Shown: in pieces, positions 12,808-60,819 of the stretch
Position numbering within the stretch: the first letter of the stretch is position 1
How the letters are laid out: every line of letters begins with the position of its first letter
NCBI GenBank assembly: GCA_937141935.1
Contig: CAKZQS010000040.1
Span: 124,001 to 188,000, forward strand
DNA: 64,000 nucleotides
Origin: an uncultured Ectothiorhodospiraceae bacterium
Lineage (GTDB): Bacteria > Pseudomonadota > Gammaproteobacteria > Nevskiales > Oceanococcaceae
Direction: 5' to 3'
Made by a program: the position numbers and the translations under genes
The notes under the pieces: model-generated
Seen by the model: only the letters and a program-made list of their open reading frames with translations
What the model was told of the DNA's origin: nothing
Databases searched by the model: none

Positions 12808-12811
12808 ACTA

Positions 12812-13006
12812 ATGCGGCGCTCGTTCCTGCTGCTCCCCCGGTTCTCGCTGTGGATCGTGATTCTGTTCGCGGTCTGGCCCCAGCCCCCCGGCCAGGCTGC
12901 GCTTGCGGCGCCGCCCCCGTCCCCCAGCGGCAGCCGCGCCACCGACAGCGGCCACGGCGACCAGTGGCGCCAGCGCCCGGGCATCAAGCCCAGCGGCTAT
13001 GGCTAG
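12812..13006 (+). CDS. Possible small exported peptide (64 aa)
   Basis: The ATG at 12812 follows GGTGGGGAAC. The N-terminus (MRRSFLLLPRFSLWIVILFA) is a good Sec-type signal: Arg-rich start, long hydrophobic core, then AALAAPPP as a possible cleavage zone. The remainder (30 residues) is Ser/Gly/Arg-rich without structure. It could be a secreted or membrane-anchored small protein, but no homologue is known to me and the frame is short. The 75 bases after it hold only a GC hairpin and the next ribosome-binding site. Confidence 0.4.
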   Translation: MRRSFLLLPRFSLWIVILFAVWPQPPGQAALAAPPPSPSGSRATDSGHGDQWRQRPGIKPSGYG

Positions 13007-13080
13007 CTGCGCTCAATCCGTGGGACACGGCTCGCCCCGCCGCCGCAAGCGCGGGGCACCCCATCGAATCGGAGTGAGTC

Positions 13081-36629: not shown

Positions 36630-38117
36630 ATGAACGAACGACGCAAGTACACCCCCGGCCAGGCCGCGCAGGATGCGCTGACAGCCTTCATGCGGGGCTT
36701 CACGTTCTCCGAGGGCATCGCCGACCGGGAGCGCCAGCGCGAGCGCCAGGCCGAGAACGACCGATGGACGCGCGAGCAGCGCGGGCAGCAGCGCAAGGTA
36801 TGGGATCGCACCCAGCAGCAGTGGGACTACGAGGACGCGACCCGCGAGACCCCCGAGCAGGTGCAGGAGCGGCGCACCGAGGAAGGGCGCGGCCGCCGGC
36901 TGCTCAACGATGCGCGCCAACTCTCGCTGGACAGCGCCCCGTCGCCGGAGGAAGCCCGCGCGGCTCGCGGCCGGAAAGCGCAGCTGGACGACCTCAACAT
37001 TGAGGGCGCGCGGGAAGCCAACCGGGGCGCCCGGGAGGGCAATGACCGCGCCGCGGCGAATCATTCCGAGAAGCAGCAGCGCCAGCGGGTGCTCGCCGGC
37101 CGGCGCCTTTTGCAGTCCCCCATCGGCGAATCCCTGCGACAGCCCGAAAGCCGGGCGGCATGGATCGACATGGGCGGGCGCATGCTCCGCGGGGAGCGCC
37201 TGGCCGCCGGCGTGACGAGCGAGCAGGTGCTGGACTACGCCAACCAGATGTTCTCGCGAGAGCTGCAGCGCGGCGTGGGCGACGCCGCACCGAACGGGGG
37301 GAAGATCACAGGCAAGCGCATCGTGGCCGCCTACATGGACGGCGATAGCTATGTGCTCGAGCTCGACGTCGAGGCCGTCGACGCGAAGGGCAACCCCTAC
37401 AACTACCGCGCGCCGGTGACGAAGGGCCGCACTTCCGAGGACACCGACGAAGTGCTGCGCCTGCCGCGCCGGGTCATCGAAGACCGCGTGCAGGCGATGG
37501 CCGCCCTGGCTCACGACATTGAGGCCGCAGGGGGCTATGACGAGGCGCTGGCCCGCACCGAAGCGATGTATCTCGAGTCCGGGGGCAAGCCGGCGGATCT
37601 CGACCCGACCGCCCGCGGCAAGATCAGCGCCAAGTCGCAGTACCTGAATGAGGTCGCGCAGCTGGTCGGCGGCGACATGCAGCGGGCGCTGGCCATCGTG
37701 GAGTCGGGCGACCTGACCACCACCGCGGCGAACATCGCGGCCAAGCTCAAAGAGGATCGGCGCGAGAAGCGCACCTATGACGTGGTGCTGCAGGACGTTC
37801 TCGGCATGCTGACCCGGGCCCGCGACGAGCAATACGGCATCCGGCAGCGCGGCGGCGCGGGCAATGGCGGCCCAGTGCGGGGCGAGCAGCAGGCGCGGCC
37901 GCAGCAGCAGCGCGGCACCAGCGGCGCGCAGCAGCAGCAGCCGGCCCGGCACACGCTGCCGCCCGAATCGCCCGGCGCGCTGTATCGCGCCCCGGATGGC
38001 AGCGAGCACGGCTTCCCGGCCGGGCAGCCGCCGCCGGATGGCTACGAATACCTTGGCGAGATCCCGCCCGGCACGCCCCTGGTTCAGGCCGACGACGGCT
38101 GGACCATCGCACTCTGA
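36630..38117 (+). CDS. Ejection-type internal virion protein (495 aa)
   Basis: Long helical protein: an N-terminal Arg/Gln/Glu-rich charged rod (residues 30-100, GIADRERQRERQAENDRWT), a central mixed domain with IGESLRQPESRAAWIDMGGR, GKRIVAAYMDGDSYVLELDV, and helices up to residue 410, then a Gln/Pro-rich C-terminal tail ending in IPPGTPLVQADDGWTIAL. Podovirus internal proteins of this size form part of the tube by which DNA crosses the envelope. Not clearly homologous to P22 gp20 by eye. The giant protein gene begins 8 bases after its stop. Confidence 0.6.
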   Translation: MNERRKYTPGQAAQDALTAFMRGFTFSEGIADRERQRERQAENDRWTREQRGQQRKVWDRTQQQWDYEDATRETPEQVQERRTEEGRGRRLLNDARQLSLDSAPSPEEARAARGRKAQLDDLNIEGAREANRGAREGNDRAAANHSEKQQRQRVLAGRRLLQSPIGESLRQPESRAAWIDMGGRMLRGERLAAGVTSEQVLDYANQMFSRELQRGVGDAAPNGGKITGKRIVAAYMDGDSYVLELDVEAVDAKGNPYNYRAPVTKGRTSEDTDEVLRLPRRVIEDRVQAMAALAHDIEAAGGYDEALARTEAMYLESGGKPADLDPTARGKISAKSQYLNEVAQLVGGDMQRALAIVESGDLTTTAANIAAKLKEDRREKRTYDVVLQDVLGMLTRARDEQYGIRQRGGAGNGGPVRGEQQARPQQQRGTSGAQQQQPARHTLPPESPGALYRAPDGSEHGFPAGQPPPDGYEYLGEIPPGTPLVQADDGWTIAL

Positions 38118-38125
38118 GGCCTGAC

Positions 38126-41100
38126 ATGCAGAAAATTCGCTGGCACGGGCCGGTCGCGCAGCAGCAAGACGAGCCGCAGCAGCCCGCGGAGCAGCAGGGC
38201 CGGCGCGTGCAGTGGCACGGCCCGGTCATCGACAACGAGCCGGAAGGCATCGGCGCGCGCAGCAGCGAGGCCCTGGAGAAGGGTGCGAAGCAGACGCTGC
38301 AGAGCCTGCGCATGTCGCGGTTCGTCATGGCGGGGGATGAAGACCCGGCTCAGCTGGCCGCAGACCTCGAGCGCTCCATCCGGGAGCGGTCGGCGCGCGG
38401 CCGGGTGATGACCCGGGGGCAATACGAGACCCGGCGCGCGATCGGCGAGTTTGACGACAGCGAAGGGTTTGTCGACTCGGTGGTGGAGGGTGCGCAGGCG
38501 GTGGGCACGGCCCTGCGGCACGCGGATGACACGCTGGTGGGCACCGTCGAGCAGGCCCCGAACATGGTCCCGAGCCTCGTCGGTGCCGGCGTGGGGGCGG
38601 CCGGCGGCGCGAAGGTTGGGGCGCTGGGCGGCCCCAAGGGCGCAGCGGCTGGCGCAGCGGTCGGCGCGTATGCCGGCATGGCGGGAGGGACCGCTATCAC
38701 CGAGCTCGGCGCGGAGGTGGAAGAAACCATCCTCGAGCGCCTGGGCGAGCAAAACCTGCCGCCGACAGCCGGCAACATCGCCGCGCTGCTTTCAGATCCA
38801 GCCTTCATGTCGATGGCCCGGGCGCGGGGCCTGAAGAAGGGCGTGACCATCGCCGCCATCGACGCGGCCACGATGAAACTGTCCGGCCTGATCGCCACGC
38901 GGCCGAATCGCGTGGCAGCGCAGCGCCGCGACGACCTCGCCGGCGTGGAGCCGGAGGATGTTGTATCCGAGGTGCGCCCCAGCCTGGCCAACCAGGTCGC
39001 GCACTCCGGCGCGGCCGCGGCGGTGGATGTCGTGGGGGAGGGCGCGGGGGAGGCCGCCAGCCAATACGTCGCGCGCGGCGAGGTCAGCAAAGGCGAAGCG
39101 CTCGAGGAAGGCATCTACGGCCTGGGCTCGGCCGCCGTGGACACCACCATCGGCGCGCTGCTGGAGCGCATGCCGGCGCCCGACCGCCAGTGGACCGAGG
39201 CCCTGAACCAGAGCGGCCAGATCAACCCGAACCTGATTACCGTCCTGGCGGACACGGCCATGCGAGCGGGCGACCAGGCCGGCCCCGAGGGTGTGGGTCT
39301 CATCGCCGCGGTCGATGGCGCCGACGATGCGGAGCTGCAGCGGGTCTCGCCGCGCTACGCGAACCTGCGCCAGACGCTGAGCGAGGCTGCGGCCAAGGCG
39401 GCGCTGCGCACCGAGCTCGAGTACATCGCGTGGAGCGATGCTGAGCAGGCCCAGCGCGAGCGGCGCCGCGGTCCCGAGCCGCAGCAGGGTGGTGATGGGG
39501 AGCGCGCCCGGGCGGCTGATGAGCCGGCCATCGTGGGTGGCGCCCTGCCGATGCCGGGGGAGCCGGGCGCCGTGATTTCGCCCGCCGCGGATTCTGTGGC
39601 CGTGGATACCTCATCCGACGGTAAGCAGGCTAACGGCGGAAACGGTAGACTCCCCGGCGACGACGCAAGTGGAGGGCAATCCCTGCGGCGTATCGGAGAA
39701 GACCGGGAAACCATCGAGGGCGCGCAAAGCCCCGAGGAAGTAGCAACAAATGATGATCTGCAAGCCGACCGTTCCCTCCCTGACCCAGCTGCGGGTCGCG
39801 CAGGAAACGGAGGTGCTGACGATGGAGGAAGCCGTGGCGCTGTCGACGCTGGTGCCCAAGATGCGCCGCCGCGCCAAGAAACGGGGCCTGGAGGCCCTGC
39901 TGTCGACGGTGCCGAGCGAGTTGCGCGAGGCCTACGGCCGGCTCTGCCTTTTCGTGACGCCCCCGATCAGCCACGCGCTGCACTAGGCGACGACGAGCGC
40001 GCCCCAGACGCAGATGCGGGGCAGGAGTTCGCGCTCGAGCAGCAGACCGAGGCGAGCCGTCGCGCCGACGAGGACCGCGAGCAGCAGCGCCAGCAGGAAC
40101 TCGAGGCCGAAGGCGAGCGCGCTGAACAGATCCGCCGGAGTGAGGCTGAGGCCGATTCGTTCACGCTGAGCGGGTCCGAGGCCGAAGCGGACCAGGCGCG
40201 CGCCGCCGGGCAGAGCGACATCTTCGACGCCCTCGCGCAGGAGGCGGCCACGTCGCCCGCCAACGATCGGCCGGAGCCGACGCCGGCGCAAATCGAGGCT
40301 GGCAACTACCGCAAGGGCCATGCCGCGCTGCAGGGCCTGCAACTGTCGATCGAGAACCCCCGCGGTTCGACGCGCCGCGGGGTGGATGCCGGCGGCCGGG
40401 CCTGGGCGGTCGAAATGCGTGACCACTACGGCTACATCCGCGGCACCAAGGGGCGCGACAAGGAGCACATCGACGTGTTCGTGGGCGACTCCCCGGAGTC
40501 GGAGCGCGCGTGGGTGATCGACCAGGTCGACCCCGAGACCGGCGAGTTCGATGAGCACAAGGTCATGCTCGGCTACCGCAACCGTGCGGAGGCGCGGGAG
40601 GCCTACCGCCGCAACTACGCGCCGGGGTGGCGCGGCATGGGCGCCATCACAGAGGTGTCGGTGCCTGACCTGCGCAAGTGGCTGGAGAAGCCGCGTCGCG
40701 CGCCGATGGCGCGGCGCACGGCGGCGCAGCGCATGGACGATAAGCGCCTGTCGCTCGGTGACTACCGCGCGGATCTCGAGCGCATGAGCCGGGAGGGCGG
40801 GTGGTTGTCGGAGGGGGGGCACATCATCCGCGACCCGCGCACCGACGACGTCACGGGCCGGACGCCTTGGGTGCCGCGCGCCGAATGGTTCCCGGACGTC
40901 CAGCGCGCTGCGCGGCTGCCCAACAACCGCCACGGCAAGGCCACGCAAGAGGCCGCCGAGAAGGCGCTCGACGGCCGCCCGATGACCGCAGCTGAGCGCG
41001 AGCACGTCGCCCACATGCTGGACTACATCACCGAACTCGAGGAAGCGGCGACCGCGGCCGGCCTCAGCCCGCCGGATCCATTCGGCATGGCCGCGGACAT

Positions 41101-44100
41101 CGCGAGCGCCGAATACGACGACGAGGCGACGCCCTACAGCCCCGAGGACTATGCGCTGGTGGAGCGTGCCGAGGAACTGGACCCGGACGCATTTGAAACC
41201 GCGGCCAAGCAGTACGAGAATGACAGCGCAGGATTCCTGCGCGCCTTGCAGGAGATTGTCGATGGACAGCAAAGCGACGGACGACAGCCGGCTGCGCTGG
41301 AAGCCGGGCGACCAGACGGCGACCCGCGAGCAGAAGCGGGTGCGGCACCTGGTGAGCTACGCCCGACTGCGGCGGGCCCGGCGCCAAGCCCGGGCGGAAG
41401 CCGAGAAGGCGGGCGCGAAGCCCGCGACGCCGGCCAGCGTCGAGAAACTGAGCCAGGCCTGGGGCGCGACCGTCAAGCCGAGCCGCAAGAAGAAGTAGCG
41501 GAGCCGCGCGGCGTCGCGGCGGCGCCCGATGGAGGTGAGGCGCGGGCGCAGGAGCCCCTAGCGGCTCGATTCCCGCTCGACCTCGTTGAAAAGTCCTACG
41601 CTCATGTGAGCTCCAGCGGCCGCTACATGGCGGCCAGCGACCGGGACGAGTTCCTGTCGGAGGTTGAAAAATATCGAACGCGCCTCGAGCCGCTGGCCGA
41701 GACGCCTCAGCAGCGAGCGCTTCTCGATGAGCTGGCTGAGAAGTTCGCTGACGACTACCTCGGTTGGACCCGGCGACTCGCTGATAGCCGTTCGGGGGTG
41801 GTGAGCTCCCATATCGCTGGGCGCTCGAAGTTCAACTCTCGCCAGGCGCAGCGCCGCGGGAACGCGCTCGATCGAACTGTAAGTTCTTTCCTCAATTGGC
41901 TCCGCGCTGCGCGTCTGGACGGTGAGCACGCACTGCGCAAGATCAGAACCCCGGAGCAGCGCAGCCGGGATGCGGATCGCGCGAATATGGAAGCCTTCAA
42001 GAGCGCGCGAGCTGAGGTGCTTTCGAGCATTGATGCCGTGCGCGAAATTGATCGCGGCGAACTGCCCGGCATGGATCGATCGCTATTCAGTCAGTCCGCC
42101 GCGCGAAAGCTGCGCGGGTTGGTCGACAGCAACAAAGGCGATTGGGCGCGTCGGATTCTGACCGAAATTCGCGACACAGACGACGGCGGCCGGAAGGCTT
42201 TTACTGCGCGACATGGGATCTGGAAGCAGGTTGGTGTTGACCCCGATCCCCCGACACCCCCTGGCGAAGCGTCGCGTGACGAGGGGGCCGACCCGTCGCC
42301 GACTGAGAACGCCGATGGGCCGCAGCCCGAAGCCGGCCAGGCCGAAGGCGCAGCAGCACAGAAGCGCCGGCGGCGCCGGGCAACCATCGACACGGAGGAA
42401 TCCTTCGCACTCATCCACGAGGAAGTCCGGTACGGGGGGATCAGCGCGACCAAGTTCAAGGACGCCTTCTCGTCGCTGATCGAGAATGGCGAGGCCATCC
42501 GCGCCGACCTGAACAAGATGACCAAGGCTCAGCTCCTGAGCCGGCTGGGGCCCATGGGGCGGGCGCGCTACAAGAACGAGCGCAAGGCCACGATCGTCGG
42601 TGTGGTGCTGGAGGCGATGCACGAGACGTTTGCGCTGGGCCGCGAATATGGGCCGCGGTCCTTCATGCACGGGCAGTACGACGACTACCAGCAGAAGAAG
42701 GCCGAGGCCCTGCGCGCCCTCGTTGACGGCACCACCGACGAAATGCTGCAGCAGCACGCTGCAGAGAACGCGGAGCGTTTTGCCGAGACCAAGGCGCGGG
42801 TCGAACAGTTCAAGCAGGCCGTGTCGGATCCGAAGACCGTTGACGACTACCGCGACTACCGGCGGTACATGCTGGGCGAGGGCAAGACCGACCGCGAGCT
42901 GCGGCTGTCGCTGCCGGCCGACCGCCGGGCGGAATTCGATCGCAGCCTGGCGGAGCAAAGCCGGCGTGCGCGCGCTGACCGCAAGGAGCAGCAGCAGACG
43001 ACGGTCAGCACCGCCGGCGAGACGGTGGGCGCTGAAATCGTGGAAACGAAGCACGCCCGGGACGGCCACGATTTGTTCGTGGTGAAGCTCGAGGACCGGG
43101 TCAGCCGCGAGGACTTCCAGACGTTGCGCCAGAGCGCCAAGCGGATGGGCGGCTACTACTCGCGCTTCCGGGGCAATGGCGCCGTGCCCGGCTTCCAGTT
43201 CCGCGAGCGGCACCAGGCTGAGGCCTTCGCTGCGCTCGCCGGTGGCGATGCCACACAGGCGCAGCAGGCCGCCAAAGAGCGTCGCAGCGTCTACGAGGAC
43301 GACCGTAGCCAGTCGGCCGTGCAGCGGCTGCGGGCGATGGCTGAGCGGCTGCAGGGCGATGCTGACGAGGCACTGTCCGCCGATCGCAAGCAGAACACCT
43401 CACGGCGGGCGGCGATGGCGGCGCGGGCGGAAGAACGCGCACGCACGCAGCAGGCGCTGGCCGAAACGATGACCCGCATTGCCGACGCAATCGAGGACGG
43501 CCGCGCCGAGTTCCTGGACCGGTTGCGCGAGAAAGGGCAGGTCGAGCTGCTGGAGAACCAGCTGCGACTGGCGCATGCGACCGAGGCCTTTGAGAAGTCG
43601 GAGAACTACGGCAAGCAGCTGGAGTTCCAGGCGGCGCCGATGACGCCCGACACTGCGGACTTCGCCGAGTGGCCGCGGTTCGGCGGCTACCGTTCGCACC
43701 TGGCCGAGCTCGCGCGCGAGTTGGTGCAGATCGACGGCACCAAAGCGCTCGGGCAGAAGCTGCTCAAGGGCGCGGACGATGTCTCGAAGGCCTACGAGCG
43801 GTGGGCGAAGACGCAGCTGCACAAGGTTTCGCTGGCCACGGCCGACGGTGCGCCGGCCCGGTTCAGCAGCAAGGCGGCGGCAGAAGGCGCTATCCGCCGC
43901 AGCAACATGCGTGGCAAGGCCATTGTGCTGCAGGTCAAGCGCGGCCAGAACGCCGTCGTCCTCAGCCCGTCCGAGGCCATCGGCCGGGGCCTGTGGAAGG
44001 GCGACGGCGACGCCCGCTTGGTGTTGTCCGACGAGCTTGGCATGGCGCTGGCCGAGAAGATCGGCCGCGCGCAGCGCCGGGGGCGCTCCATTGTCGGCGG

Positions 44101-47100
44101 CTGGCAGTTCGAGAACGTGGCCAGCACCCGCAAGGCCCTGTCCCGCATGGGCATCGAAACCGCCGAGGAATTTCGGGCAGCGCTTCGCGAGTTCCAGGCC
44201 CTGCGCCAGGCGCCCGCCAAGGCTGACCGCGTGCGTGAGCTCGAGCGGTCGATGGTTGGGCGGAAGAACGATGGCCTCGACTTCTTCCCCACGCCGGCGG
44301 GTGTGGCTGACGAAATGGTGCAGACCGCCGAGCTCACGGCGGAAATGACCGTGCTCGAGCCGTCCGCCGGGTGGGGGCACATTGCCGAGCGGATCCGCGC
44401 CGCCGGCGTCGAGCCGGACGTCGTGGAATTCTCGCCCGAGCGGCGCGAGCTGCTTGAGGCAAAGGGCTTCGCTGTGCTCGAGGTCAACGACTTCCTCATG
44501 CTGGGCGGCGGGCCTTCCCAAGAGGTCAAGGATGCGCTTGCAGAAGTGCAAGACGATCTCGACAAGGCCAACGCCGCTTACGTTGAAGAATCGAATTCGC
44601 CACGCGGTGCCGACAGAACGAAGCTGCGGCGCTTGAAGGAGAAGGCTGACGACCTAGCTGCGCGCCGCGCTGAGCTGAAAAAGTCGGCCAACCGCGCGCG
44701 TGACTTTTACACCTACGGCGACACGTTCCGCGACCCTCACGGTAACGAGGGGATCATGCGTGGGTTGGGCGGCATGGGTAGCGATCGCGTGCGGATCGTG
44801 ACGGCAGAAGGCCGGGAGATCTACAACAACCGCAGCGACCTCACGCCCGTCCGAAAGAACAACGGAAGCGGATACGACCGCATCGTGATGAACCCGCCAT
44901 TCAGCGACGGCCGGGACATTGACCATGTGCGCCACGCCTTCAGCCTGCTCAAGCCCGGCGGACGCATCGTCGCCATCATGGGCGAGGGCGCCTTCTACCG
45001 ATCGGACGCCAAGGCCGCAGCCTTCCGCGAGTGGCTGGAAACCGTGGAGGGCACCAGCGAGAAGCTGGACGAGGGGACATTTCTCGACCCCTCGCTGCCC
45101 GTCACGACTGGCGTGCACGCCCGGATGGTGGTTGTGGACAAGCCCACGGCCCTTGAGACCCGGACGGAGGGCGGTGGTAGCAACGTGTTCCGCCGTTTCG
45201 ATCTAGGCGACTCACCCGCCACGCCGGAGCAGGCGTATTCAGATGCCGTCGCGTTGACCGGAATTGACATCGGGCTCGCTGTGGAGCCGTACGCGGATTC
45301 GGCGGCGGCGGATGTGCCGGCCTACTTCGACCCGGATAAGCGAGTCATCCGGGTCAACACTGCGGTCGCCCGCACCCGGTCGGAAGCGGCGATGGACATG
45401 GCCGAGGAGATTCTGCACGCAGTCGATTCGCTCAGCGGCAAGCCGGTGTACCGCACGATCAGCAGTGGCTCCACCCTCCTGGCCAAGGGCGGAGGAGTGC
45501 GGCGCGAGGTCGAGGCTCACTATGCGGGCGACGGGGAGTTGGCAGCGTGGGTTCGCTATCCGATTGGCAGTCTGGACCTGTCTGAGTCACGCACCAAAGC
45601 GGAGCTTTTCGCACGGCTCGGTGTGCTGTATTTTGGAGACCCGGACCATATGCGGGCGTCCTTGCCCAAGGCCTACGAGGTATTCGATGGATCCTTCCTT
45701 TTCCTCACAGAAAATCCGCTCGGTGAGTCGCGCGTACTACGACAAGTTCGGGAAAGAGGCCTACAGCAAGGCGCCGCACCGGTTCGTGTGCGGATACCAC
45801 CACGGCCCGATGGCGCTGGTCGCCAAGATGGAGGAAGCCCTGGAGGCAGGCCAGCCAGTGGAGGACTGGATGCCCTTCGTCGCCGAATTGCAGAAAGGCT
45901 CGTTGCGCCCCGACGCGGTGGCGTAGTTCAGTTCTCGCGGCGCCCGGTATCGGCGCCGCAGCGGGGGGACGAGAAGCGCCTGGATCTGCGCGGCCTGCGC
46001 CGCCTGCTGAGCGAGCAATTTGGCGCCGAGACCATTGAGGGCCTGGTCCGCAACGGCGTCCTGACGATTGTCGATACGGCCGACCGGCTGCCGCCAAGTC
46101 TCGGCGTGCCGCATGATACCAATGCGGAAGGCCTATACCTCGAAGGCGAAGTGTTCCTCATCGCGTCGAACATCGCCCCAGCGCGCGCCGGCGCGGTGCT
46201 GCTGCACGAAGTGGGCGAGCACTACGGGCTGCGGACGGTGCTTGGTGAGAAGGGCTACACGGCGCTGCTGAAAGAGGTTCGGGCCTACTACAAGTCCGGC
46301 AGCCGGGCCTTTACGACGGCGTGGCACCGGGTCCGCGAGGAAGAGCCTGGCCTGGCCGAGGAATCTGACGCCTTCGCTCAGGAGGTTTTGGCCCGGGTGG
46401 GCGAGACCGCATCCGGCCACAAGCTGTCGATCTGGCGCCGCCTCGTGGCGGCGGTGAAGGCCTGGCTCATCAAGACGCTGGGCTTCGCCAAGGGCATCAC
46501 CGACGACGATGTGCGCGCCTTCGTGGTCAGCAGCCTGCGCCGCGCGGCCGGCGGCCCGGCCCGGCACATGGGCGCAGGGCTCATCATGCGCGCCAGCCGC
46601 CAGCCGGCGATCTGGTATTCGCAGATGGCCCGGTATCTCGCCGACAACCTGCCGCGGCGCGGCCCGGGGAAGATGGTTGCGCAGATGGTTCGCGCTTTCC
46701 TCAGCAGGGCGGAGTTCCAGGGCGTGGACGCTGAAGCCGCGCCGCTGGTGCAATGGCTGGAAGGCCAGGAGACCGTGACCCGCGAGGAAGTGCTCGACTT
46801 CCTTGAGTCGACAGAGCAGCAGATGTTCAGCCGCAGGAGGCTGACAGCCTTTGAAAATGACGCGCCGGGTGCAACGGGTGCAGCGTCTGTTGCGGCCCGC
46901 GCTACGCAGTCCGTCCCTACACCTAATCGAGGCGACCTGGGAGCCGGCGCGCGCGAGGATCGTGCCACTACGGGGGAGTCAAGGCAAGCCGGCCGGCCCA
47001 ACCCCGACATTCGCTACAGCCGCCCGCCGAAGGGCGACGGCAAGCACAGCCCGGAGTTTGAGGCCGAGGCCTGGCGCAAGGCCGGCATGCCCCCGGACGA

Positions 47101-49621
47101 CCGCGGCCCGCTGGCGCGTGCCCTGGACGCCATGCGCGCCCACGGCGAGCGCGTCCGGGAAGAATTCATCGACCAGTTCACCACCGGCATGTTTGATCGG
47201 TTCCGGCCGATCAAGGACGCCGAGGGTGCGGTGACGCCTGAGCGGTCGGGCTACATCGCGGCGCGGCTCAGTACGGGGTCGGAATCGGTGCTGTACGGCA
47301 TGCTGATGCACGGCGCGCCGCAGCTACGGGACGGGATCATCCAGAAGAAGGAGGGCAGCCGCGGGCTGCTGCAGATCCTTCAGCCGGTGGCGCAAGACCT
47401 GAACCGCTGGGCCGCCTGGATGGTCGGCATGCGCGCCTACCGGCTCGCCGGGCAGCAGCGGGAGAACAACCTGACGCTGCCGGAAATCGCCTACCTGCGG
47501 GGCCTGGCCGGCGACCAACGGGATGCCTTCGAGGCGGTGGCTACGGACCTGCGCGCGTACATGACCGACGTGCTGCAGCTGATGGCGGATTCCGGCTTGC
47601 TGGATCAGGCGGCCGTGGCCAAGTTCAGCGAGGATCGGTACTACCTGCCGTTCTATCGGGTGCAGGAGGATCCTGGCAGGGACCGCAGCTTCGACCCCGA
47701 AGCCGTGGTCCGCCCGTTCAAGAAGCGCGGCCTCTCGCACCAGGACAGCGGCATCAAGCGCCTACGGGGCGGCCGGCTCGCGATCAACGACCCGATCGAG
47801 AACCTGTTTGCCCACCTGAGCCGGGCCGTCGACGCCAGCATGAAGAATCACGCGCTCGGCATGGTGGTGGCGAATGTGTGGCCGCAGCTGGCGCTACCGA
47901 CGGAAGGGGACCGGAAGCGGGTCATCCGCCTCATGCAGGACGGCAAGCCGGTGCAGTTCACAGTGGCTGACCCCGTGCTGTTTGAGGCCCTGTCCGCCGT
48001 TGGCGAGCAGCCCAACCGCGGATTCGCGATCGACACCATGCGCGGAGCGCGCCGGCTGCTGACGACCTTGGTGACGGCCGAGCCCGCCTTCATGGTCCGC
48101 AACTTCATGCGCGATGCCCTGCACGCCTGGCTGATCGACAAAAACAGCTTCACGCTCGGCGTCGACTCGGTGCGCGGTGCGGCCGCCACCTTGCGCACCC
48201 TGCGCTCCCACGTCGGCGACAACGAAGACGCGGCGGATCCGCGCGTTGTGTCGATGATGTTCGCAGGCGCCTCGTTCATCGGTGGCTACACCTACGGCGG
48301 CGACCCGGCCAAGAATGCGGCGGCCCTGCGAAAGGCGCTGCGGCGCAAAGGGATGCCGGCCACCAAGGTCGAGCAGTACATCAAGACCTTGGTCGGCACC
48401 CCTGCGCAGATGATGTCGCTCTACCTGGAAGTCGGCGAGGCGCTGGAGAACGCGAACCGGGTCGGCACGATGCAGTCGGCGCTCGACGCCGGGGCTTCCA
48501 TGAAGCATGCCGTGTTTGAGTCCAAAGACTTCATGGACTTCAGCCTGCGCGGCAAGTGGGCGGTGGTGCAGTGGCTGGCCGACACGGTGCCGTTCATCAA
48601 TGCGCGGCTGCAGGGCCTGTACAAGCTCGGCCGCGAGGCGCGGCGCGACCCCAAGGTGATGGCGCTCATCAACCGGCGCATGGCGCTGTATGGGTCCATG
48701 GTCGGCCTGGCGTCTATTGCACTGGTGGCCAGCAACAGCGGCGAGGACTGGTACGAAGAACTGCCGGAGTGGGACAAGGACGCGAACTGGCACGTGAAGG
48801 TCGGCGGCATCCACTACCGCATCCCCAAGCCCTTCGAGCTCGGCATCGTGTTCGGCACGGTACCGGAGCGCAGCTACCGGCTATTTGCTGGCCACGATGG
48901 CGTGGGCGAGAGCGTGCGCAGCGGCGTGCACGCCGTGACCGGCACCCTGGCAATCAACCCGGTGCCGCAGCTGGCGCTGCCCGCGGCGGAAGTGATTGCG
49001 AACTACGATTTTTTCCGTAAGCGGCCGATCGAATCGTTCTCCGACGAGGGCCTGCTGCCCGGCGCGCGGTCCAGCGTGCACACGTCGCCGATCATGGTCG
49101 AAGTCGGCGAGGCCATCGGCGTGTCGCCCAAGAAGCTCGAGCACCTGTGGAATGGCTACCTGGGCACGCTGGGCGGCTATGCGCTGACCACGTCGGATGC
49201 GCTGCTGTGGGCCGCGACATCGGATGTAGCGCGGCCTGCGATGCGCGTGGACGACATGATTGTGCTCAAGAGCTTCGTCCGTACCGGCGTGCCGTGGTCC
49301 ACCGAGTTCCAGGAGGAGCTGTACCAGTACGCCAAGGAGGCGGAGCAGACCTACCGCACCATCAACGAATACCTGGAGCGGGGCAAAGAGGCCAAGGCCG
49401 ATGCCCTGGAGCAGGACAACCAGGCGCTGCTGAACTGGCGTCGCGACTTCCGGCGGGCGACCCGGGATTTGGCGGACCTTCGCGGCGACCGTGACGCCGT
49501 GCTGCTGGACCCCGATATGACGGCGGCCGTGAAGCGCACGCAGCTCGATGAGATCCAGCGCCAGATCAACGCGATCGCCAAGGATACGGTCGAGGGTTTC
49601 GAGGCGGAGCGGCGTCAGTAG
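38126..49621 (+). CDS. Giant polyvalent virion protein (3,831 aa)
   Basis: One open frame of 3,831 residues. Domains by rough residue: 1-60 with the motif WHGPV twice; about 148-190 a glycine-zipper segment (SLVGAGVGAAGGAKVGALGG); 430-630 low-complexity linker; 632-700 coiled coil; 724-860 the 'inorganic pyrophosphatase'-like domain of polyvalent proteins (RDHYGYIRGTKGRDKEHIDV, FDEHKVMLGYRNRAEAREAY); 860-1045 helices; 1046-1125 linker; 1150-1375 a helical domain; 1415-2040 coiled coils; 2045-2350 an N6-adenine-type methyltransferase (LEPSAGWGH at 2077-2085, NPPF at 2256-2259, with a charged insertion between); 2370-2520 peptidase-like with EEILHA; 2521-2605 linker; 2630-2860 zinc peptidase with HEVGEH at 2694-2699; 2960-3831 a C-terminal block resembling LPD38, with a hydrophobic helix near 3520. 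Polyvalent proteins are injected with phage DNA and act in the host cell. Third positions weaken where small genes are nested. Confidence 0.85.
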   Translation: MQKIRWHGPVAQQQDEPQQPAEQQGRRVQWHGPVIDNEPEGIGARSSEALEKGAKQTLQSLRMSRFVMAGDEDPAQLAADLERSIRERSARGRVMTRGQYETRRAIGEFDDSEGFVDSVVEGAQAVGTALRHADDTLVGTVEQAPNMVPSLVGAGVGAAGGAKVGALGGPKGAAAGAAVGAYAGMAGGTAITELGAEVEETILERLGEQNLPPTAGNIAALLSDPAFMSMARARGLKKGVTIAAIDAATMKLSGLIATRPNRVAAQRRDDLAGVEPEDVVSEVRPSLANQVAHSGAAAAVDVVGEGAGEAASQYVARGEVSKGEALEEGIYGLGSAAVDTTIGALLERMPAPDRQWTEALNQSGQINPNLITVLADTAMRAGDQAGPEGVGLIAAVDGADDAELQRVSPRYANLRQTLSEAAAKAALRTELEYIAWSDAEQAQRERRRGPEPQQGGDGERARAADEPAIVGGALPMPGEPGAVISPAADSVAVDTSSDGKQANGGNGRLPGDDASGGQSLRRIGEDRETIEGAQSPEEVATNDDLQADRSLPDPAAGRAGNGGADDGGSRGAVDAGAQDAPPRQETGPGGPAVDGAERVARGLRPALPFRDAPDQPRAALGDDERAPDADAGQEFALEQQTEASRRADEDREQQRQQELEAEGERAEQIRRSEAEADSFTLSGSEAEADQARAAGQSDIFDALAQEAATSPANDRPEPTPAQIEAGNYRKGHAALQGLQLSIENPRGSTRRGVDAGGRAWAVEMRDHYGYIRGTKGRDKEHIDVFVGDSPESERAWVIDQVDPETGEFDEHKVMLGYRNRAEAREAYRRNYAPGWRGMGAITEVSVPDLRKWLEKPRRAPMARRTAAQRMDDKRLSLGDYRADLERMSREGGWLSEGGHIIRDPRTDDVTGRTPWVPRAEWFPDVQRAARLPNNRHGKATQEAAEKALDGRPMTAAEREHVAHMLDYITELEEAATAAGLSPPDPFGMAADIASAEYDDEATPYSPEDYALVERAEELDPDAFETAAKQYENDSAGFLRALQEIVDGQQSDGRQPAALEAGRPDGDPRAEAGAAPGELRPTAAGPAPSPGGSREGGREARDAGQRRETEPGLGRDRQAEPQEEVAEPRGVAAAPDGGEARAQEPLAARFPLDLVEKSYAHVSSSGRYMAASDRDEFLSEVEKYRTRLEPLAETPQQRALLDELAEKFADDYLGWTRRLADSRSGVVSSHIAGRSKFNSRQAQRRGNALDRTVSSFLNWLRAARLDGEHALRKIRTPEQRSRDADRANMEAFKSARAEVLSSIDAVREIDRGELPGMDRSLFSQSAARKLRGLVDSNKGDWARRILTEIRDTDDGGRKAFTARHGIWKQVGVDPDPPTPPGEASRDEGADPSPTENADGPQPEAGQAEGAAAQKRRRRRATIDTEESFALIHEEVRYGGISATKFKDAFSSLIENGEAIRADLNKMTKAQLLSRLGPMGRARYKNERKATIVGVVLEAMHETFALGREYGPRSFMHGQYDDYQQKKAEALRALVDGTTDEMLQQHAAENAERFAETKARVEQFKQAVSDPKTVDDYRDYRRYMLGEGKTDRELRLSLPADRRAEFDRSLAEQSRRARADRKEQQQTTVSTAGETVGAEIVETKHARDGHDLFVVKLEDRVSREDFQTLRQSAKRMGGYYSRFRGNGAVPGFQFRERHQAEAFAALAGGDATQAQQAAKERRSVYEDDRSQSAVQRLRAMAERLQGDADEALSADRKQNTSRRAAMAARAEERARTQQALAETMTRIADAIEDGRAEFLDRLREKGQVELLENQLRLAHATEAFEKSENYGKQLEFQAAPMTPDTADFAEWPRFGGYRSHLAELARELVQIDGTKALGQKLLKGADDVSKAYERWAKTQLHKVSLATADGAPARFSSKAAAEGAIRRSNMRGKAIVLQVKRGQNAVVLSPSEAIGRGLWKGDGDARLVLSDELGMALAEKIGRAQRRGRSIVGGWQFENVASTRKALSRMGIETAEEFRAALREFQALRQAPAKADRVRELERSMVGRKNDGLDFFPTPAGVADEMVQTAELTAEMTVLEPSAGWGHIAERIRAAGVEPDVVEFSPERRELLEAKGFAVLEVNDFLMLGGGPSQEVKDALAEVQDDLDKANAAYVEESNSPRGADRTKLRRLKEKADDLAARRAELKKSANRARDFYTYGDTFRDPHGNEGIMRGLGGMGSDRVRIVTAEGREIYNNRSDLTPVRKNNGSGYDRIVMNPPFSDGRDIDHVRHAFSLLKPGGRIVAIMGEGAFYRSDAKAAAFREWLETVEGTSEKLDEGTFLDPSLPVTTGVHARMVVVDKPTALETRTEGGGSNVFRRFDLGDSPATPEQAYSDAVALTGIDIGLAVEPYADSAAADVPAYFDPDKRVIRVNTAVARTRSEAAMDMAEEILHAVDSLSGKPVYRTISSGSTLLAKGGGVRREVEAHYAGDGELAAWVRYPIGSLDLSESRTKAELFARLGVLYFGDPDHMRASLPKAYEVFDGSFLFLTENPLGESRVLRQVRERGLQQGAAPVRVRIPPRPDGAGRQDGGSPGGRPASGGLDALRRRIAERLVAPRRGGVVQFSRRPVSAPQRGDEKRLDLRGLRRLLSEQFGAETIEGLVRNGVLTIVDTADRLPPSLGVPHDTNAEGLYLEGEVFLIASNIAPARAGAVLLHEVGEHYGLRTVLGEKGYTALLKEVRAYYKSGSRAFTTAWHRVREEEPGLAEESDAFAQEVLARVGETASGHKLSIWRRLVAAVKAWLIKTLGFAKGITDDDVRAFVVSSLRRAAGGPARHMGAGLIMRASRQPAIWYSQMARYLADNLPRRGPGKMVAQMVRAFLSRAEFQGVDAEAAPLVQWLEGQETVTREEVLDFLESTEQQMFSRRRLTAFENDAPGATGAASVAARATQSVPTPNRGDLGAGAREDRATTGESRQAGRPNPDIRYSRPPKGDGKHSPEFEAEAWRKAGMPPDDRGPLARALDAMRAHGERVREEFIDQFTTGMFDRFRPIKDAEGAVTPERSGYIAARLSTGSESVLYGMLMHGAPQLRDGIIQKKEGSRGLLQILQPVAQDLNRWAAWMVGMRAYRLAGQQRENNLTLPEIAYLRGLAGDQRDAFEAVATDLRAYMTDVLQLMADSGLLDQAAVAKFSEDRYYLPFYRVQEDPGRDRSFDPEAVVRPFKKRGLSHQDSGIKRLRGGRLAINDPIENLFAHLSRAVDASMKNHALGMVVANVWPQLALPTEGDRKRVIRLMQDGKPVQFTVADPVLFEALSAVGEQPNRGFAIDTMRGARRLLTTLVTAEPAFMVRNFMRDALHAWLIDKNSFTLGVDSVRGAAATLRTLRSHVGDNEDAADPRVVSMMFAGASFIGGYTYGGDPAKNAAALRKALRRKGMPATKVEQYIKTLVGTPAQMMSLYLEVGEALENANRVGTMQSALDAGASMKHAVFESKDFMDFSLRGKWAVVQWLADTVPFINARLQGLYKLGREARRDPKVMALINRRMALYGSMVGLASIALVASNSGEDWYEELPEWDKDANWHVKVGGIHYRIPKPFELGIVFGTVPERSYRLFAGHDGVGESVRSGVHAVTGTLAINPVPQLALPAAEVIANYDFFRKRPIESFSDEGLLPGARSSVHTSPIMVEVGEAIGVSPKKLEHLWNGYLGTLGGYALTTSDALLWAATSDVARPAMRVDDMIVLKSFVRTGVPWSTEFQEELYQYAKEAEQTYRTINEYLERGKEAKADALEQDNQALLNWRRDFRRATRDLADLRGDRDAVLLDPDMTAAVKRTQLDEIQRQINAIAKDTVEGFEAERRQ
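39621..39634. promoter_or_regulatory. Operator-like sequence GTAAGCAGGCTAAC upstream of nested gene A
   Basis: Differs in one base from the GTTAGC-NN-GCTAAC palindrome found twice elsewhere, and lies 116 bases before nested gene A. With one mismatch the match could be chance in a 64-kb window (about 0.1 expected). Still, its place ahead of a small independent gene is suggestive. A possible -10 box TAGACT follows at 39,646-39,651, with no good -35. Confidence 0.3.
39750..39986 (+). CDS. Nested gene A within the giant protein gene (78 aa)
   Basis: In the frame one base ahead of the giant frame. GAGGAAG lies 9 bases before an ATG ATG start. 73 of 78 codons end in G or C, while the giant frame over the same bases has many A/T endings and encodes only Gly/Ala/Asp linker sequence (residues 542-621). 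The product (VPSLTQLRVAQETEVLTMEE, VALSTLVPKMRRRAKKRGLE) is a basic helical protein of unknown family. Coding is therefore primarily in this frame. It is a good candidate for an independently made small protein. Confidence 0.75.
   Translation: MMICKPTVPSLTQLRVAQETEVLTMEEAVALSTLVPKMRRRAKKRGLEALLSTVPSELREAYGRLCLFVTPPISHALH
41262..41498 (+). CDS. Nested gene B within the giant protein gene (78 aa)
   Basis: Same frame offset as nested gene A. AGGAG 7 bases before the ATG, a very good site, and about 73 of 78 codons end in G or C. The product is basic and helical (LRWKPGDQTATREQKRVRHL, VSYARLRRARRQARAEAEKA) and ends in SRKKK, suiting nucleic-acid binding. The giant frame here (residues 1046-1125) is Pro/Gly/Arg/Glu linker with weak codon usage. 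Family unknown. Confidence 0.75.
   Translation: MDSKATDDSRLRWKPGDQTATREQKRVRHLVSYARLRRARRQARAEAEKAGAKPATPASVEKLSQAWGATVKPSRKKK
45687..45926 (+). CDS. Nested gene C within the giant protein gene (79 aa)
   Basis: Again in the same offset frame. GAGG with 6-base spacing precedes the ATG. Codon usage in this frame is good (about 66 of 79 end in G/C), while the giant frame (residues 2521-2601) reads Arg/Gly/Pro linker. The product contains YYDKFGKEAYSKAPHRF, VCGYHHGPMALVAKMEEAL, a helix and a Trp-containing C-terminus (EDWMPFVAELQKGSLRPD). A small soluble protein with paired His, of unknown family. Confidence 0.75.
   Translation: MDPSFSSQKIRSVSRAYYDKFGKEAYSKAPHRFVCGYHHGPMALVAKMEEALEAGQPVEDWMPFVAELQKGSLRPDAVA
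46851..47234 (+). pseudogene. Possible nested gene D (start region only) in the giant protein gene
   Basis: The same offset frame has an AGGAGG box (46,835-46,840) 10 bases before a TTG (46,851), or an ATG at 46,857. The first 45 codons have fair G/C endings and encode a basic helix (RRVQRVQRLLRPALRSPSLH), while the giant frame over the same stretch is linker. After about 46,990 codon usage moves back to the giant frame and the open frame continues only as a shadow to 47,234. It may be a decayed or truncated nested gene. Confidence 0.25.
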
Positions 49622-53340: not shown

Positions 53341-54366
53341 ATGCGCACCGCCGATTTCGATTACGAGCTGCCCGCCGAGCTGATCGCCCAGGCCCCACTG
53401 CCTGAGCGTGCCGACTCGCGTCTGCTGGTGCTGCAGCGCGAAGGTCTGGTGGACAGCCGCATGCGCGAGTTCCCGCGCTGGCTGGATGCCGACGACCTCC
53501 TGGTGTTCAACAACACCCGCGTCGTGCGCGCCCGGCTGCAGGGGCGCAAGGAAGGCACCGGGGGGCACGTCGAGATTCTGGTCGAGCGGGTGCTCGACGA
53601 GCGCCGCGCCCTGGTGATGCTGCGGGCCAGCAAAACGCCCAAGCCCGGCACCCGCATCCTGGTCGAGCAGTACCCGCTGCAGGTGCAGGGGCGGCAGCAG
53701 GAGTTCTTTGAGCTCGACAGCCCGGCCATCGATTGGGCGGCGCTGATGGAAGAGCGTGGCGAGATCCCGTTGCCGCCCTACATCGAGCGCCGCGCCACGC
53801 AGGACGATGCCGAGCGTTACCAGAGCCTGCTGGCCCGCGAGGACGGCGCGGTGGCCGCGCCCACCGCCAGCCTGCATTTCGACCAGGACCTGCTGCGTGC
53901 GGCGCGCGAGCGGGTGGCCGAGCTGGCGACGATCACGCTGCATGTCGGCGCCGGCACCTTCCAGCCGGTGCGCGTGGAATCGGTGGAATCGCACCAGATG
54001 CACGCCGAGCGCTACCGCGTGGACGATGCGCTGGTCGAGGCGGTGGACCGCACGCGCGCCCGCGGTGGCCGTGTGGTGGCCGTAGGCACCACCGTCGTGC
54101 GGGCGCTGGAGAGCGCGGCGCAGGAGGGCAGCCTGTCGGCCCGCGCCGGTGATTCGCGGCTGTTCATCACGCCGGGCTACCGCTTTCGCGTGGTCGATGC
54201 GCTGCTGACCAACTTCCACCTGCCGCAGAGCACGCTGCTGATGCTGGTCAGCGCCTTTGCCGGCCAGGCCCGCATCCGCGAGGCCTATGCCCACGCCGTG
54301 CGCGAGCGCTACCGCTTCTTTTCCTACGGCGACGCGATGTTCCTGCCCGGGCACCTGCCGGACTGA
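53341..54366 (+). CDS. queA: S-adenosylmethionine:tRNA ribosyltransferase-isomerase
   Basis: 341 residues, close to E. coli QueA (356). Transfers the ribosyl part of S-adenosylmethionine to preQ1 in tRNA to make epoxyqueuosine, the step after Tgt. Hallmarks: DFDYELPAELIAQAPLPERADS, LLVFNNTRVVRARLQGRKEG-type block, GHVEILVERVL, GEIPLPPYI, ERYQ, LHFDQDLL, ITLHVGAGTFQPVR, FITPGYRFRVVDALLTNFHL and FAGQARIREAYAHAV. Complete gene, start at 53,341. It is the first host gene after the prophage, with tgt downstream on the same strand, though two genes on the other strand separate them. Confidence 0.96.
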   Translation: MRTADFDYELPAELIAQAPLPERADSRLLVLQREGLVDSRMREFPRWLDADDLLVFNNTRVVRARLQGRKEGTGGHVEILVERVLDERRALVMLRASKTPKPGTRILVEQYPLQVQGRQQEFFELDSPAIDWAALMEERGEIPLPPYIERRATQDDAERYQSLLAREDGAVAAPTASLHFDQDLLRAARERVAELATITLHVGAGTFQPVRVESVESHQMHAERYRVDDALVEAVDRTRARGGRVVAVGTTVVRALESAAQEGSLSARAGDSRLFITPGYRFRVVDALLTNFHLPQSTLLMLVSAFAGQARIREAYAHAVRERYRFFSYGDAMFLPGHLPD

Positions 54367-54408
54367 GGCGCCTCGGGCCTAGGGAAACGCGGACTTATTC
54401 GCGCGCCC

Positions 54409-55721
54409 CTAGAGCTCCTCGTCGACAAAGGCGACGTGCTGGAAGTATTGCTGGCCCTCGAAGGAGGCGCCGAGCGCGCCGATGATGATGCCGGTGGCGG
54501 CGGTAAAGCCGGCCAGCGACAGGTAATGTCGCAGCGTGATCGCACCCTCCAGGGAGGCCGCCCAGCCGCGTACCAGCGTGTCCGGGTAAAGGGTCTGGCT
54601 CAGCGTCAGCGCCAGCCCGAACAGCGCCAGGTAGGTGATCAGCATCCCCAGCAGCACCACGATGACCACCGCGGCATTGCTGAACACCACCTGCTCGGTC
54701 AACGGCCCGCTGCGCGGCGGGTGCAGCAGCAGGCGCTGGCGGTGGATGATGAAGGCGCAGGTGCCCAGCAGCGCCAGCAGGCTCAGCGCGACGATCGTGC
54801 CGGCCGGCTGGCTCATGCCCAGCTCCCAGCCTTCGGCCGCCGTCAGCAGCACGATCAAGGTCGACAAGGCCGCGGTCGACAGGCCGCTGAGGCGAAAGGG
54901 GAACTGCCAGGGGTGCGCCTGCAGCACGGCGCTGGCGACCTCCTCGCGGCCGATCCACAGCGCCCGCAGGTAAAAACGCCAGCGCGCCTGGCGCGCGGCC
55001 CGCGGCAGTTCCTCCAGGCGCACGTCCGCGGTGGCCTGCAACTCCTCGCGCAACTGCAGGCGCTGCTCCTCGTCGAAGTGGCGCATCGCGTCCAGCGCCG
55101 CGGGCCCGGCCGGCAGGTGCATATAGCTGTCGGGCGCTTCGCTGTGGGGCAGGTCGTTGAGATCGCCGAGCAGGTGCATCACCAGCGCCACGATGCGGCG
55201 CACGGCGACCGGGTCGGCCGGGCTGTCATCGTCGCCGACCAAGGCCTCATCGGTGGCATCGGCGGCATCGGCCGCGCCCGGCGGGGCGGCACCGGTCTCG
55301 GTTTCGGGCGCAGTCGGCGCGGCGCGTGCGCCGATGCGCGCCAGCGAAAGCACGGCCGCATAGAGCGAGCGCGAGGGCGCCGCCATGGCCTGCGGCCGGC
55401 TGTAGGCGGCCAGGTCGGCGGGCGTGATCACCAGCGCATAGTCCCAGTGGTGTTGGGCGCGCTGGCGGGCGCCCTCCTTGAGCAGCGCCACCGGCTCTTC
55501 CTGCGGCGTCAGCAGCGGCTCGTCCCATTCCACCAGCGGCATGCGCCAGCGAAATTCCGGCAGGGCCTGCTCCAGCGCGGCCAGCACCTGCCGGCGCGCG
55601 GCCTGCACGCTGGCACGCTGGCGCGCGTCCAGCGCGTGGGCGACCAGCCAGCCCAGCTCGACGACGGGCTCGTGGCGGGCGGCCTGGGGCTCGGTCGCGC
55701 CGGGCGCGTCGTCGGCGGGCC

Positions 55722-55725
<4 letters not shown>
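54409..55725 (-). CDS. Membrane protein of unknown function between queA and tgt
   Basis: 438 residues from the GTG at 55,725, whose TGA-type overlap (GTGA) with the rhodanese stop marks coupling. Residues 1-300 are soluble and Ala/Glu-rich with a Pro-rich linker and helices (HWDYALVITPADLAAYSRPQ, LRALWIGREEVASAVLQAHP). Four transmembrane segments occupy the C-terminal 140 residues (LSTLIVLLTAAEGWELG, TIVALSLLALLGTCAFIIH, AAVVIVVLLGMLITYLALFG, YLSLAGFTAATGIIIGALG). I do not recognise the family. Convergent with queA, co-transcribed with the rhodanese. Confidence 0.75.
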
Positions 55726-57570
<1,845 letters not shown>

Positions 57571-57600
57571 TTTGCGGCTTTGCCAAGCCCCCGGGACACC

Positions 57601-57930
57601 ATGGATTTCTTCCTCTCCGCGGCCTATGCCCAGGCCGGCGCGCCCGCGCAGCCCTCGCTGATGGCGCAGTTGCTGCCGCTGCTGCTGCTCGGCGTGCTGT
57701 TCTACTTCATGCTGATTCGCCCGCAGATGAAGCGCAACAAGGAACACCGCGAGCTGGTGGGCGGCCTGTCCAAGGGCGACGAAATCGTCAGCTCCGGCGG
57801 CCTGGCCGGGCGCGTTACCGACGTGGGCGAGGTCTACCTGACGCTCGAAATCGCCGAGGGCACCGAGGTCAAGGTGCAAAAGGCCGCCGTGGCCCAGGTG
57901 CTGCCCAAAGGGACGCTGAAGTCCCTGTAG
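57601..57930 (+). CDS. yajC: Preprotein translocase accessory subunit YajC
   Basis: 109 residues. Inner-membrane accessory of the SecDF complex. One transmembrane segment at about 20-40 (LMAQLLPLLLLGVLFYFML) followed by IRPQMKRNKEHRELVGGLSK and a cytoplasmic beta domain DEIVSSGGLAGRVTDVG, the typical YajC architecture. The N-terminal MDFFLSAAYAQAGAPAQPSL includes the usual short periplasmic tail. Operon tgt-yajC-secD-secF, the arrangement normal in gammaproteobacteria. Confidence 0.95.
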   Translation: MDFFLSAAYAQAGAPAQPSLMAQLLPLLLLGVLFYFMLIRPQMKRNKEHRELVGGLSKGDEIVSSGGLAGRVTDVGEVYLTLEIAEGTEVKVQKAAVAQVLPKGTLKSL

Positions 57931-58000
57931 TTTGCGTGCCGCGCGGCCCCGGCCGCCGGCGTACACGCCCCCAAGAGGCCCGACGCGGGCCGGGAATCGC

Positions 58001-59869: not shown

Positions 59870-59880
59870 GGGGCCCCGCC

Positions 59881-60819
59881 ATGCGTGCACTGTCCAAGCC
59901 CACCCATATCAACTTCCTCGGCGTACGCCGGATCACGGCCGCCGTCTCCATCCTGCTGGTGCTGCTGAGCCTGGCCAGCCTGGCGACCCGCGGCCTGAAC
60001 TTTGGCATCGACTTCACCGGCGGTGTGCTGGTCGAAGTGGATTACCCGCAGGCCGCCGAGCTGGACGCCGTGCGCTCCACGCTGGACGCCGGCGGCTTCC
60101 CCGGTGCCGTGGTGCAGAACTTCGGTTCGGCCAGCGATGTGCTGGTGCGGCTGCTGCCGCAGGCCGAGAAGTCCTCGGCCGAGCTGTCGGCCGAGATCCT
60201 GGGCGTGCTGCAGGCGGCCGAGCCGCAGGTGGAACTGCGCCGCATCGAGTATGTGGGCCCGCAGGTCGGCGAAGAGCTGGCCATCAACGGCGGCCTGGCC
60301 ATGATCTGGGCGCTGGGCTGCATCTTTCTATACATCGTGCTGCGCTTCCACTGGAAGTTTTCGGCCGGCGCCGTCGCGGCCCTGGGCCACGACGTGGTGC
60401 TGACGCTGGGCGCCTTCTCGCTGTTCCAGTGGGATTTCGACCTGCCGGTGCTGGCGGCCGTGCTGGCCGTCATCGGCTACTCGCTGAACGACACCATCGT
60501 CGTGTTCGACCGTTGCCGCGAAAACTTCCGCCGCAAAGGCAGTGGCGACGAGGTCGACATGATGAACGGTGCGATCAACGAGATGCTTTCGCGCACGCTG
60601 ATGACCTCGACCACCACGCTGCTGGTGCTGGGCGCACTGCTGCTGATTGGCGGCGAGGCCCTGACTGGCTTCTCCACGGCCCTGATTCTGGGCGTGGTGA
60701 TCGGGACCTATTCCTCGACCTATGTGGCCGGGGCCTCCTCGCTGGCGCTGGGGCTCAAGCGCACCGACCTGATTCCGGTCGAGATCGAGGAAGGCGACGA
60801 GTCCGGCGCCCGGGTCTGA
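59881..60819 (+). CDS. secF: Protein translocase subunit SecF
   Basis: 312 residues. Partner of SecD in the same operon, 11 bases after its stop. N-terminal TM (ITAAVSILLVLLSLASLATR), the GLNFGIDFTGGVLVEVDYPQ motif, the periplasmic loop, then membrane helices with FHWKFSAGAVAALGHDVVLT, YSLNDTIVVFDRCRENFRR and TSTTTLLVLGALLLIGGEAL. All family blocks present and complete. Ends 120 bases before a convergent gene. Confidence 0.96.
   Translation: MRALSKPTHINFLGVRRITAAVSILLVLLSLASLATRGLNFGIDFTGGVLVEVDYPQAAELDAVRSTLDAGGFPGAVVQNFGSASDVLVRLLPQAEKSSAELSAEILGVLQAAEPQVELRRIEYVGPQVGEELAINGGLAMIWALGCIFLYIVLRFHWKFSAGAVAALGHDVVLTLGAFSLFQWDFDLPVLAAVLAVIGYSLNDTIVVFDRCRENFRRKGSGDEVDMMNGAINEMLSRTLMTSTTTLLVLGALLLIGGEALTGFSTALILGVVIGTYSSTYVAGASSLALGLKRTDLIPVEIEEGDESGARV

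Follow-up and report, generated by a model that had tools for sequence, protein, structure and literature searches.

The giant polyvalent-protein gene and its nested ORFs

The window (the whole 64,000-nucleotide stretch of DNA that was analysed) carries a prophage with a giant polyvalent-protein gene (Table 1). The giant matches phrog_11358 at E=0, matches phrog_15406 (DNA methyltransferase) too, and is 42% identical over 1,232 aa to the giant of LKA5. With an InPase domain, a methyltransferase-like region and an LPD38 domain in one ORF, it is a large polyvalent protein. In the P22-like Vibrio and Thalassomonas relatives, ejection-protein genes precede the giant gene. Beyond the prophage, at 53341-60819 of the window, lie queA-, tgt-, secD- and secF-like genes (names from reading the translations), which suggests that the prophage is integrated beside a conserved host operon.

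Three short ORFs lie inside the giant gene. The original prediction had given their coordinates, lengths, ATG starts and shared offset, all of them exactly, and the ribosome-binding site that it claimed for each was recovered as an SD-like motif (Table 1). It had also placed the three exactly in the linkers between domains. This is accurate for ORF 1 and for ORF 2, which lies after the InPase cassette and directly before a block, starting at giant aa 1128, that is conserved in all relatives. ORF 3, between the methyltransferase region and a block conserved from about aa 2674, departs from it: its start apparently falls at the C-terminal margin of a domain-like stretch, from which it continues into the linker. 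The products of ORFs 1, 2 and 3 are referred to as P0001-P0003.

Table 1. Positions in the window of the giant gene, its domains and the putative nested genes with their SD-like motifs
Feature	Position	Strand	Description and basis
Giant polyvalent-protein gene	38126..49621	+	Open frame, 3,831 codons; F116/LKA5-like (Hollowayvirus-type) prophage
SD-like GAGGAAG of nested gene 1	39734..39740	+	Sequence; 9 nt ahead of ATG
Putative nested gene 1 (family A)	39750..39986	+	78 aa, +1 frame; linker upstream of InPase; codon LLR, HMM, pairwise Z, AF2
InPase domain of giant	40286..40687	+	aa 721-854; PF18823, E=6e-56
SD-like AGGAGA of nested gene 2	41250..41255	+	Sequence; 6 nt ahead of ATG
Putative nested gene 2	41262..41498	+	78 aa, net charge +14, +1 frame; codon LLR, segmentation
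DNA methyltransferase-like region of giant	44273..45160	+	About aa 2050-2345; NPPF motif; PHROG matches
SD-like GAGGT of nested gene 3	45677..45681	+	Sequence; 5 nt ahead of ATG
Putative nested gene 3	45687..45926	+	79 aa, +1 frame; codon LLR, segmentation
LPD38 domain of giant	48743..49264	+	aa 3540-3713; PF18857, E=1.4e-39

Codon usage changes frame over the nested ORFs

G or C occupies 73/78, 73/78 and 66/79 of the nested third positions in ORFs 1, 2 and 3, reproducing the counts of the original prediction, against 36/77, 45/77 and 34/78 of the giant-frame third positions over the same bases. Along the giant, GC3 drops from 0.8-0.95 to 0.42-0.61 over the nested ORFs and then climbs back up. 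Since nested position 3 is position 1 of the giant frame, in a linker rich in A/G/P/R/D/E, the high nested GC3 is partly automatic. In a control in which the giant was rewritten with synonymous codons, 1013, 1117 and 504 of the 2,000 recoded genes kept an open nested frame with GC3 at or above that observed for ORFs 1, 2 and 3, respectively. With the observed values thus equalled or exceeded in about half of the recodings for ORFs 1 and 2 and in about a quarter for ORF 3, GC3 alone is no proof, and as an argument for coding it carries less weight than originally supposed, even though the counts stand. Codon usage proved decisive instead: the nested log-likelihood ratio was 35.8 for ORF 1, 39.7 for ORF 2 and 47.9 for ORF 3, and the maxima among the 2,000 recodings were 1.0, 7.6 and 0.0, so that no recoding reached the observed value for any of the three.

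For comparison, about 110 giants homologous to that of the window were collected, some from genomes and some from viral contigs. Unsupervised segmentation of these, blind to starts and stops, delimited window segments at 39779-39988, 41264-41449 and 45734-45928, in agreement with the three ORFs, and across the whole set the internal codon-usage swaps went to the +1 state only, never to +2. A scan of the alternative frames for swapped codon usage returned 49 candidates, 48 of them in +1, the exception lying at the 5' edge of an ORF; the window, with three, was the richest case. Some swaps, among them that at 37781-38117 of the window, lay at the 5' ends of stop-to-stop ORFs; these were rejected as nested genes, being the ends of upstream genes. 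The frame swap at 12809-13078 of F116 (L015, NC_006552) was also rejected: it is the frameshift (12809-13168) that splits the F116 giant into two annotated ORFs. Close relatives have one ORF here, and the codon signal of the F116 giant departs from the frame ahead of the stop; the split probably reflects an error in sequencing or a mutation of the F116 isolate.

We conclude that the three ORFs very probably are real genes that encode proteins, each contained entirely within the giant gene in its +1 frame and most likely internally initiated. For ORF 3 the case rests on the codon signal, the ribosome-binding site and the limits of the ORF.

ORF 1 belongs to a family of nested small proteins, as judged by profile searches

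Iterated profile searches of all six frames of all loci defined a previously unrecorded small-protein family, family A, in which the sequence comparisons place ORF 1. Its members are helical, of about 61-80 aa, usually end in ...LH, and follow the pattern LPxWLxxA....vIS..EA..L......LPP.L..A..RL.L.E......H. Conserved nested starts in homologous phages, which the original prediction had proposed as a check, were indeed present: family A occurs with an SD-preceded ATG, which window ORF 1 has as well, at a corresponding place inside about 17 other giant polyvalent genes, of Vibrio, Thalassomonas, Aeromonas, Dechloromonas, Solimonas and metagenomic phages. All members, that of the window included, are in the +1 frame of a giant polyvalent ORF.

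Leave-one-out tests recovered 12 family A members at E values of 3e-16 to 8e-6, and tblastn of the whole phage collection added members from Vibrio phage FGH, Thalassomonas phage BA3 and Vibrio phage VvAW1. With an HMM built without the window, ORF 1 was the top non-seed among 59,791 ORFs, at E=0.12 and with an alignment reaching the terminal His; with only three ORFs singled out in advance, ORF 1 among them, this rank is much stronger evidence than the raw E value. Its pairwise Z scores were 9.3 against the FGH member, 6.0 against that of BA3 and 5.6 against L022. A smaller, earlier profile missed ORF 1 (E=23), so the enlarged profile and the pairwise scores are what support its membership. 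The further candidates L146 and L098 lack statistical support, and a match of phrog_9533 to one family member (E=0.004) was judged unreliable. Some of the seeds were picked after the frame-swap search, which makes the set lean to nested copies; as a counterweight, six members were found by the HMM alone and the phage-wide tblastn was unbiased. Of the giants examined, only about 15% were seen to carry family A, which is therefore not essential to the giant. In both Aeromonas elements a terminator-like GC hairpin (CAGCCCCGGC...GCCGGGGCTGCTGTTT) follows right after the nested family A stop, within the giant (L016 9417-9450, L047 7467-7500).

One homologue of ORF 1 has been annotated: BA3_0004 (YP_001552273.1), an overlapping hypothetical CDS inside BA3_0002 of Thalassomonas phage BA3, which differs from ORF 1 in having been given an earlier start, for a length of 110 aa, and for which we found no family description. 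The statement that the products resemble nothing known thus fails for ORF 1, which has relatives, and holds for ORFs 2 and 3, for which no homologues were detected. P0001-P0003 had no match in Pfam, PHROGs or NCBIfam, and nothing was returned by tblastn against phages or by the plasmid search; scans of viral contigs with each of the three products found none, and a search of the relatives' genomes gave, for each product, none besides its own.

The AF2 model of ORF 1 is a compact helical domain (pLDDT 81.5, pTM 0.66). A fold search of the PDB gave no significant match, and the best viral structural match was A8HNW3, of 110 residues (prob 0.98, E 0.18), whose likeness to BA3_0004 is here that of annotated length alone.

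Selection acts differently on the two frames

The comparison of constraint in both frames, also proposed originally, gave a clear outcome among the family A homologues, as the nested frame was conserved and the giant-frame sequence was not: over 136 pairs the mean pairwise Z reached 7.30 for the nested frame, against 0.72 for that of the giant and 1.52 for the third frame. In the close pair L016/L047, differences at nested positions 1, 2 and 3 numbered 2, 2 and 12 (12/16 on position 3). A change at nested position 3 alters a first codon position of the giant, so that most of these substitutions replace an amino acid there. The family B pair L114/L115 gave 1, 6 and 10 (10/17 on position 3), and the pair BA3/FGH 12, 14 and 18, a position-3 excess that is only mild.

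We then calculated, by giving the nested protein random synonymous codons, the chance that the giant frame would stay open. This was 0.0006 for FGH, below 0.0002 for BA3 and 0.0004 for VvAW1, and jointly about 10^-21.5 over 17 nested genes; in the family A host phages with 41-50% GC, the giant frame is open despite a chance below 0.001. The values for the window ORFs were 0.16-0.24 each, its GC being too high for this test to discriminate. Since the giant frame is open against the odds across the family, the giant appears to be truly read through, as dual coding requires. The sequences thus indicate that both frames are selected in family A, the nested one for its sequence and that of the giant only for lacking stops.

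ORFs 2 and 3 and other nested families

Basic nested ORFs of other sequence, grouped as families B and D, occupy comparable linker slots in other giants. Family D comprises L018, L097, L102 and L120, with L127 added by profile at about 1e-4; family B lies upstream of InPase in L107, L112 and L118, unlike ORF 2. The likeness of ORF 2 to these families is in charge and slot only: neither the family B nor the family D HMM matched P0002, and phmmer returned only P0002 itself. L005 (8862-9020) and L022 (7263-7403) each have, downstream of a family A gene, a nested ORF rich in lysine and proline that terminates in IG(M/Q)F; this pair, likewise basic and comparably placed, is possibly one more small family.

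No relatives of ORF 3 were found in the family databases, viral contigs, relatives' genomes or by phmmer. Its single-sequence AF2 model is helical (pLDDT 67.9, pTM 0.54), and a fold search with it gave no match. Family C, which follows the methyltransferase in the Pseudomonas-type giants L134-L151, was rejected as its counterpart, since substitutions there favour giant position 3 and no SD is present.

Two further observations concern other giants. Thalassomonas phage BA3 (L177) has a second annotated nested CDS, BA3_0003 (10953-11297), in +1 of the giant; weakly related sequences were found in Vibrio phages (L175 8917-9084, L179 9925-10044). In L134, L136, L138, L139, L145 and L107, a +1 open stretch (TNRLTDSEIESL...) in the C-terminal part of the giant looks coding-like in both frames and has no SD; it may represent dual coding or a domain of the giant frame.

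Probable translation of the nested ORFs

An SD of at least 4 nt preceded 29/32 nested starts, compared with 22% of 8,916 background +1 ATGs, and one of at least 5 nt preceded 22/32, compared with 6%. This excess is somewhat inflated by the choice of the sample, in which some starts were first chosen with the SD in view and those of L108, L130 and L026 were placed 3-9 nt off. An in-frame TAG lies two codons ahead of the ATG of ORF 1, and in seven cases (window ORF 1, L046, L016, L047, L128, L112 and L108) stops occur 0-3 codons before the ATG, which rules out most routes of entry by frameshifting. No separate promoter for the nested ORFs stands out in the window. Together, the upstream stops, the SD sites and the lack of a conspicuous promoter make internal initiation on the mRNA of the giant likely.

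We infer from these sequence features that the nested ORFs are translated. Ribosomes would initiate internally, at the nested SD and ATG on the giant's own mRNA, and produce separate small proteins, and those in the giant frame would read the same bases one frame off, as a disordered linker rich in A/G/P/D/E/R/Q. Giant-frame stops are rare over the nested genes because the G/C-rich nested third position is the giant first position, and all stops begin with T. Selection would keep the sequence of the nested protein and, of the giant frame, only its openness. The original proposal that overlapping genes on one mRNA shape the linkers is strongly supported for ORF 1, where conservation confined to the nested frame, the constant +1 offset, the SD and selected openness all point to it. 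ORFs 2 and 3 draw support for it from codon usage, the SD and their boundaries, and none from homologues.

Alternative explanations

The nested genes could be mobile elements that entered the linkers out of frame, in the manner of the ShiLan out-of-frame HNH, with harmless read-through tolerated. Their patchy distribution is compatible with this, as is the presence of either family A or family B upstream of the InPase cassette, depending on the giant, and the out-of-frame HNH provides a precedent (PMC11855218). However, there is no nuclease motif and no Pfam, PHROG or NCBIfam match, the size of 45-80 aa is below that of known homing nucleases, and the searches made found no copy outside giant genes, family A being absent as a free-standing gene from phages, plasmids and 369 genomes of the class. 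We consider this explanation improbable.

It is also quite improbable that the ORFs are fossils, silent remnants of intergenic genes kept as linker when the giant was fused from separate polyvalent genes. Such remnants should not show substitutions that avoid nested positions 1 and 2, nor a family A nested frame conserved across very diverged giants whose linkers cannot be aligned. These objections cover family A; ORFs 2 and 3 are individually without relatives, codon usage and SD would linger for a while after fusion, nested genes are present patchily, and in some relatives (L102 and L127) the N-terminal part is indeed a separate ORF.

A compositional artefact of low-complexity, GC-rich linkers is hardly credible. 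Nested GC3, being giant GC1, would be high in any linker of A/G/P/R/D/E, and about half of the recodings matched it with an open frame for ORFs 1 and 2, but the codon likelihood, never reached in 2000 recodings, refutes this for ORFs 2 and 3, and homology does so for ORF 1, family A also being nested in phages with 41-50% GC. Finally, compensated frameshifts, in which a pair of indels shifted a linker that was ancestrally read otherwise, with no separate gene, would yield a codon-usage swap bounded on both sides but would account neither for boundaries marked by an SD-preceded ATG and a stop codon, nor for the constant +1 offset, nor for a small family of homologues, delimited alike, in many giants, and as no giant was found with an A-like sequence in its own frame, this explanation is largely refuted and retains practically no credence.

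Possible role of the nested products

Accepting internally initiated nested genes as the preferred reading, the products would be candidates for accessory proteins in the assembly or ejection of the giant. We hold this role to be possible though doubtful; it is favoured over others since the giant adjoins ejection-protein genes in the P22-like relatives and family A was seen only inside such giants. Immunity to one particular cassette is unlikely for family A, as it occurs with and without InPase. A broader picture, to which we tentatively give slightly less than an even chance, is that of a conserved overlapping-gene module at cassette junctions, with family A upstream of the first cassette and a small, highly basic protein after it, both made from the giant mRNA and serving assembly, loading or ejection, the linkers being their shadow.

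Nested genes would explain the linker character of giant polyvalent proteins, and their products would be fresh candidates for a part in ejection or host take-over. In family A, nature would provide clean examples of a split in selection, with sequence selected in one frame and nothing but openness in the other. Nested genes also imply that gene callers systematically miss small proteins within the largest phage genes.

Comparison with known systems

Small genes nested in the +1 frame of another gene, with their own start, are familiar from Rz/Rz1 of lambdoid phages, whose products are functionally paired as the lysis spanin. The likeness is one of arrangement alone, since the host gene there is small and not a multidomain giant.

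The large, DarB-like polyvalent proteins were surveyed by Iyer et al. 2017 (PMC5512222), and the host gene in the window, with its InPase, methyltransferase and LPD38, is one of them. Nested genes are not described in that survey, where the word overlap is absent and nested refers to hairpins, and our search, confined to the open-access literature, turned up no account of genes nested within polyvalent ones. Overlapping phage genes are known; a homologous family at a constant offset in multi-kilobase polyvalent genes, over 41-70% GC, was not found described.

The nearest precedent is the out-of-frame HNH gene of the ShiLan type in phage methylases. This is a 195-aa homing endonuclease that lies out of frame in an actinophage methylase, starts at GTG with no detectable SD, and interrupts a domain (PMC11855218). 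In both cases a complete out-of-frame ORF sits in a larger, methylase-containing phage gene whose own frame stays open, as it does in the window giant, and encodes a disordered loop. P0001-P0003, at 78-79 aa and with no family match, are not HNH nucleases, and the nested ORFs as a whole differ from the ShiLan gene in their length of 43-80 aa, the absence of a nuclease motif, their ATG with SD, and their position at the domain junctions of the giants.
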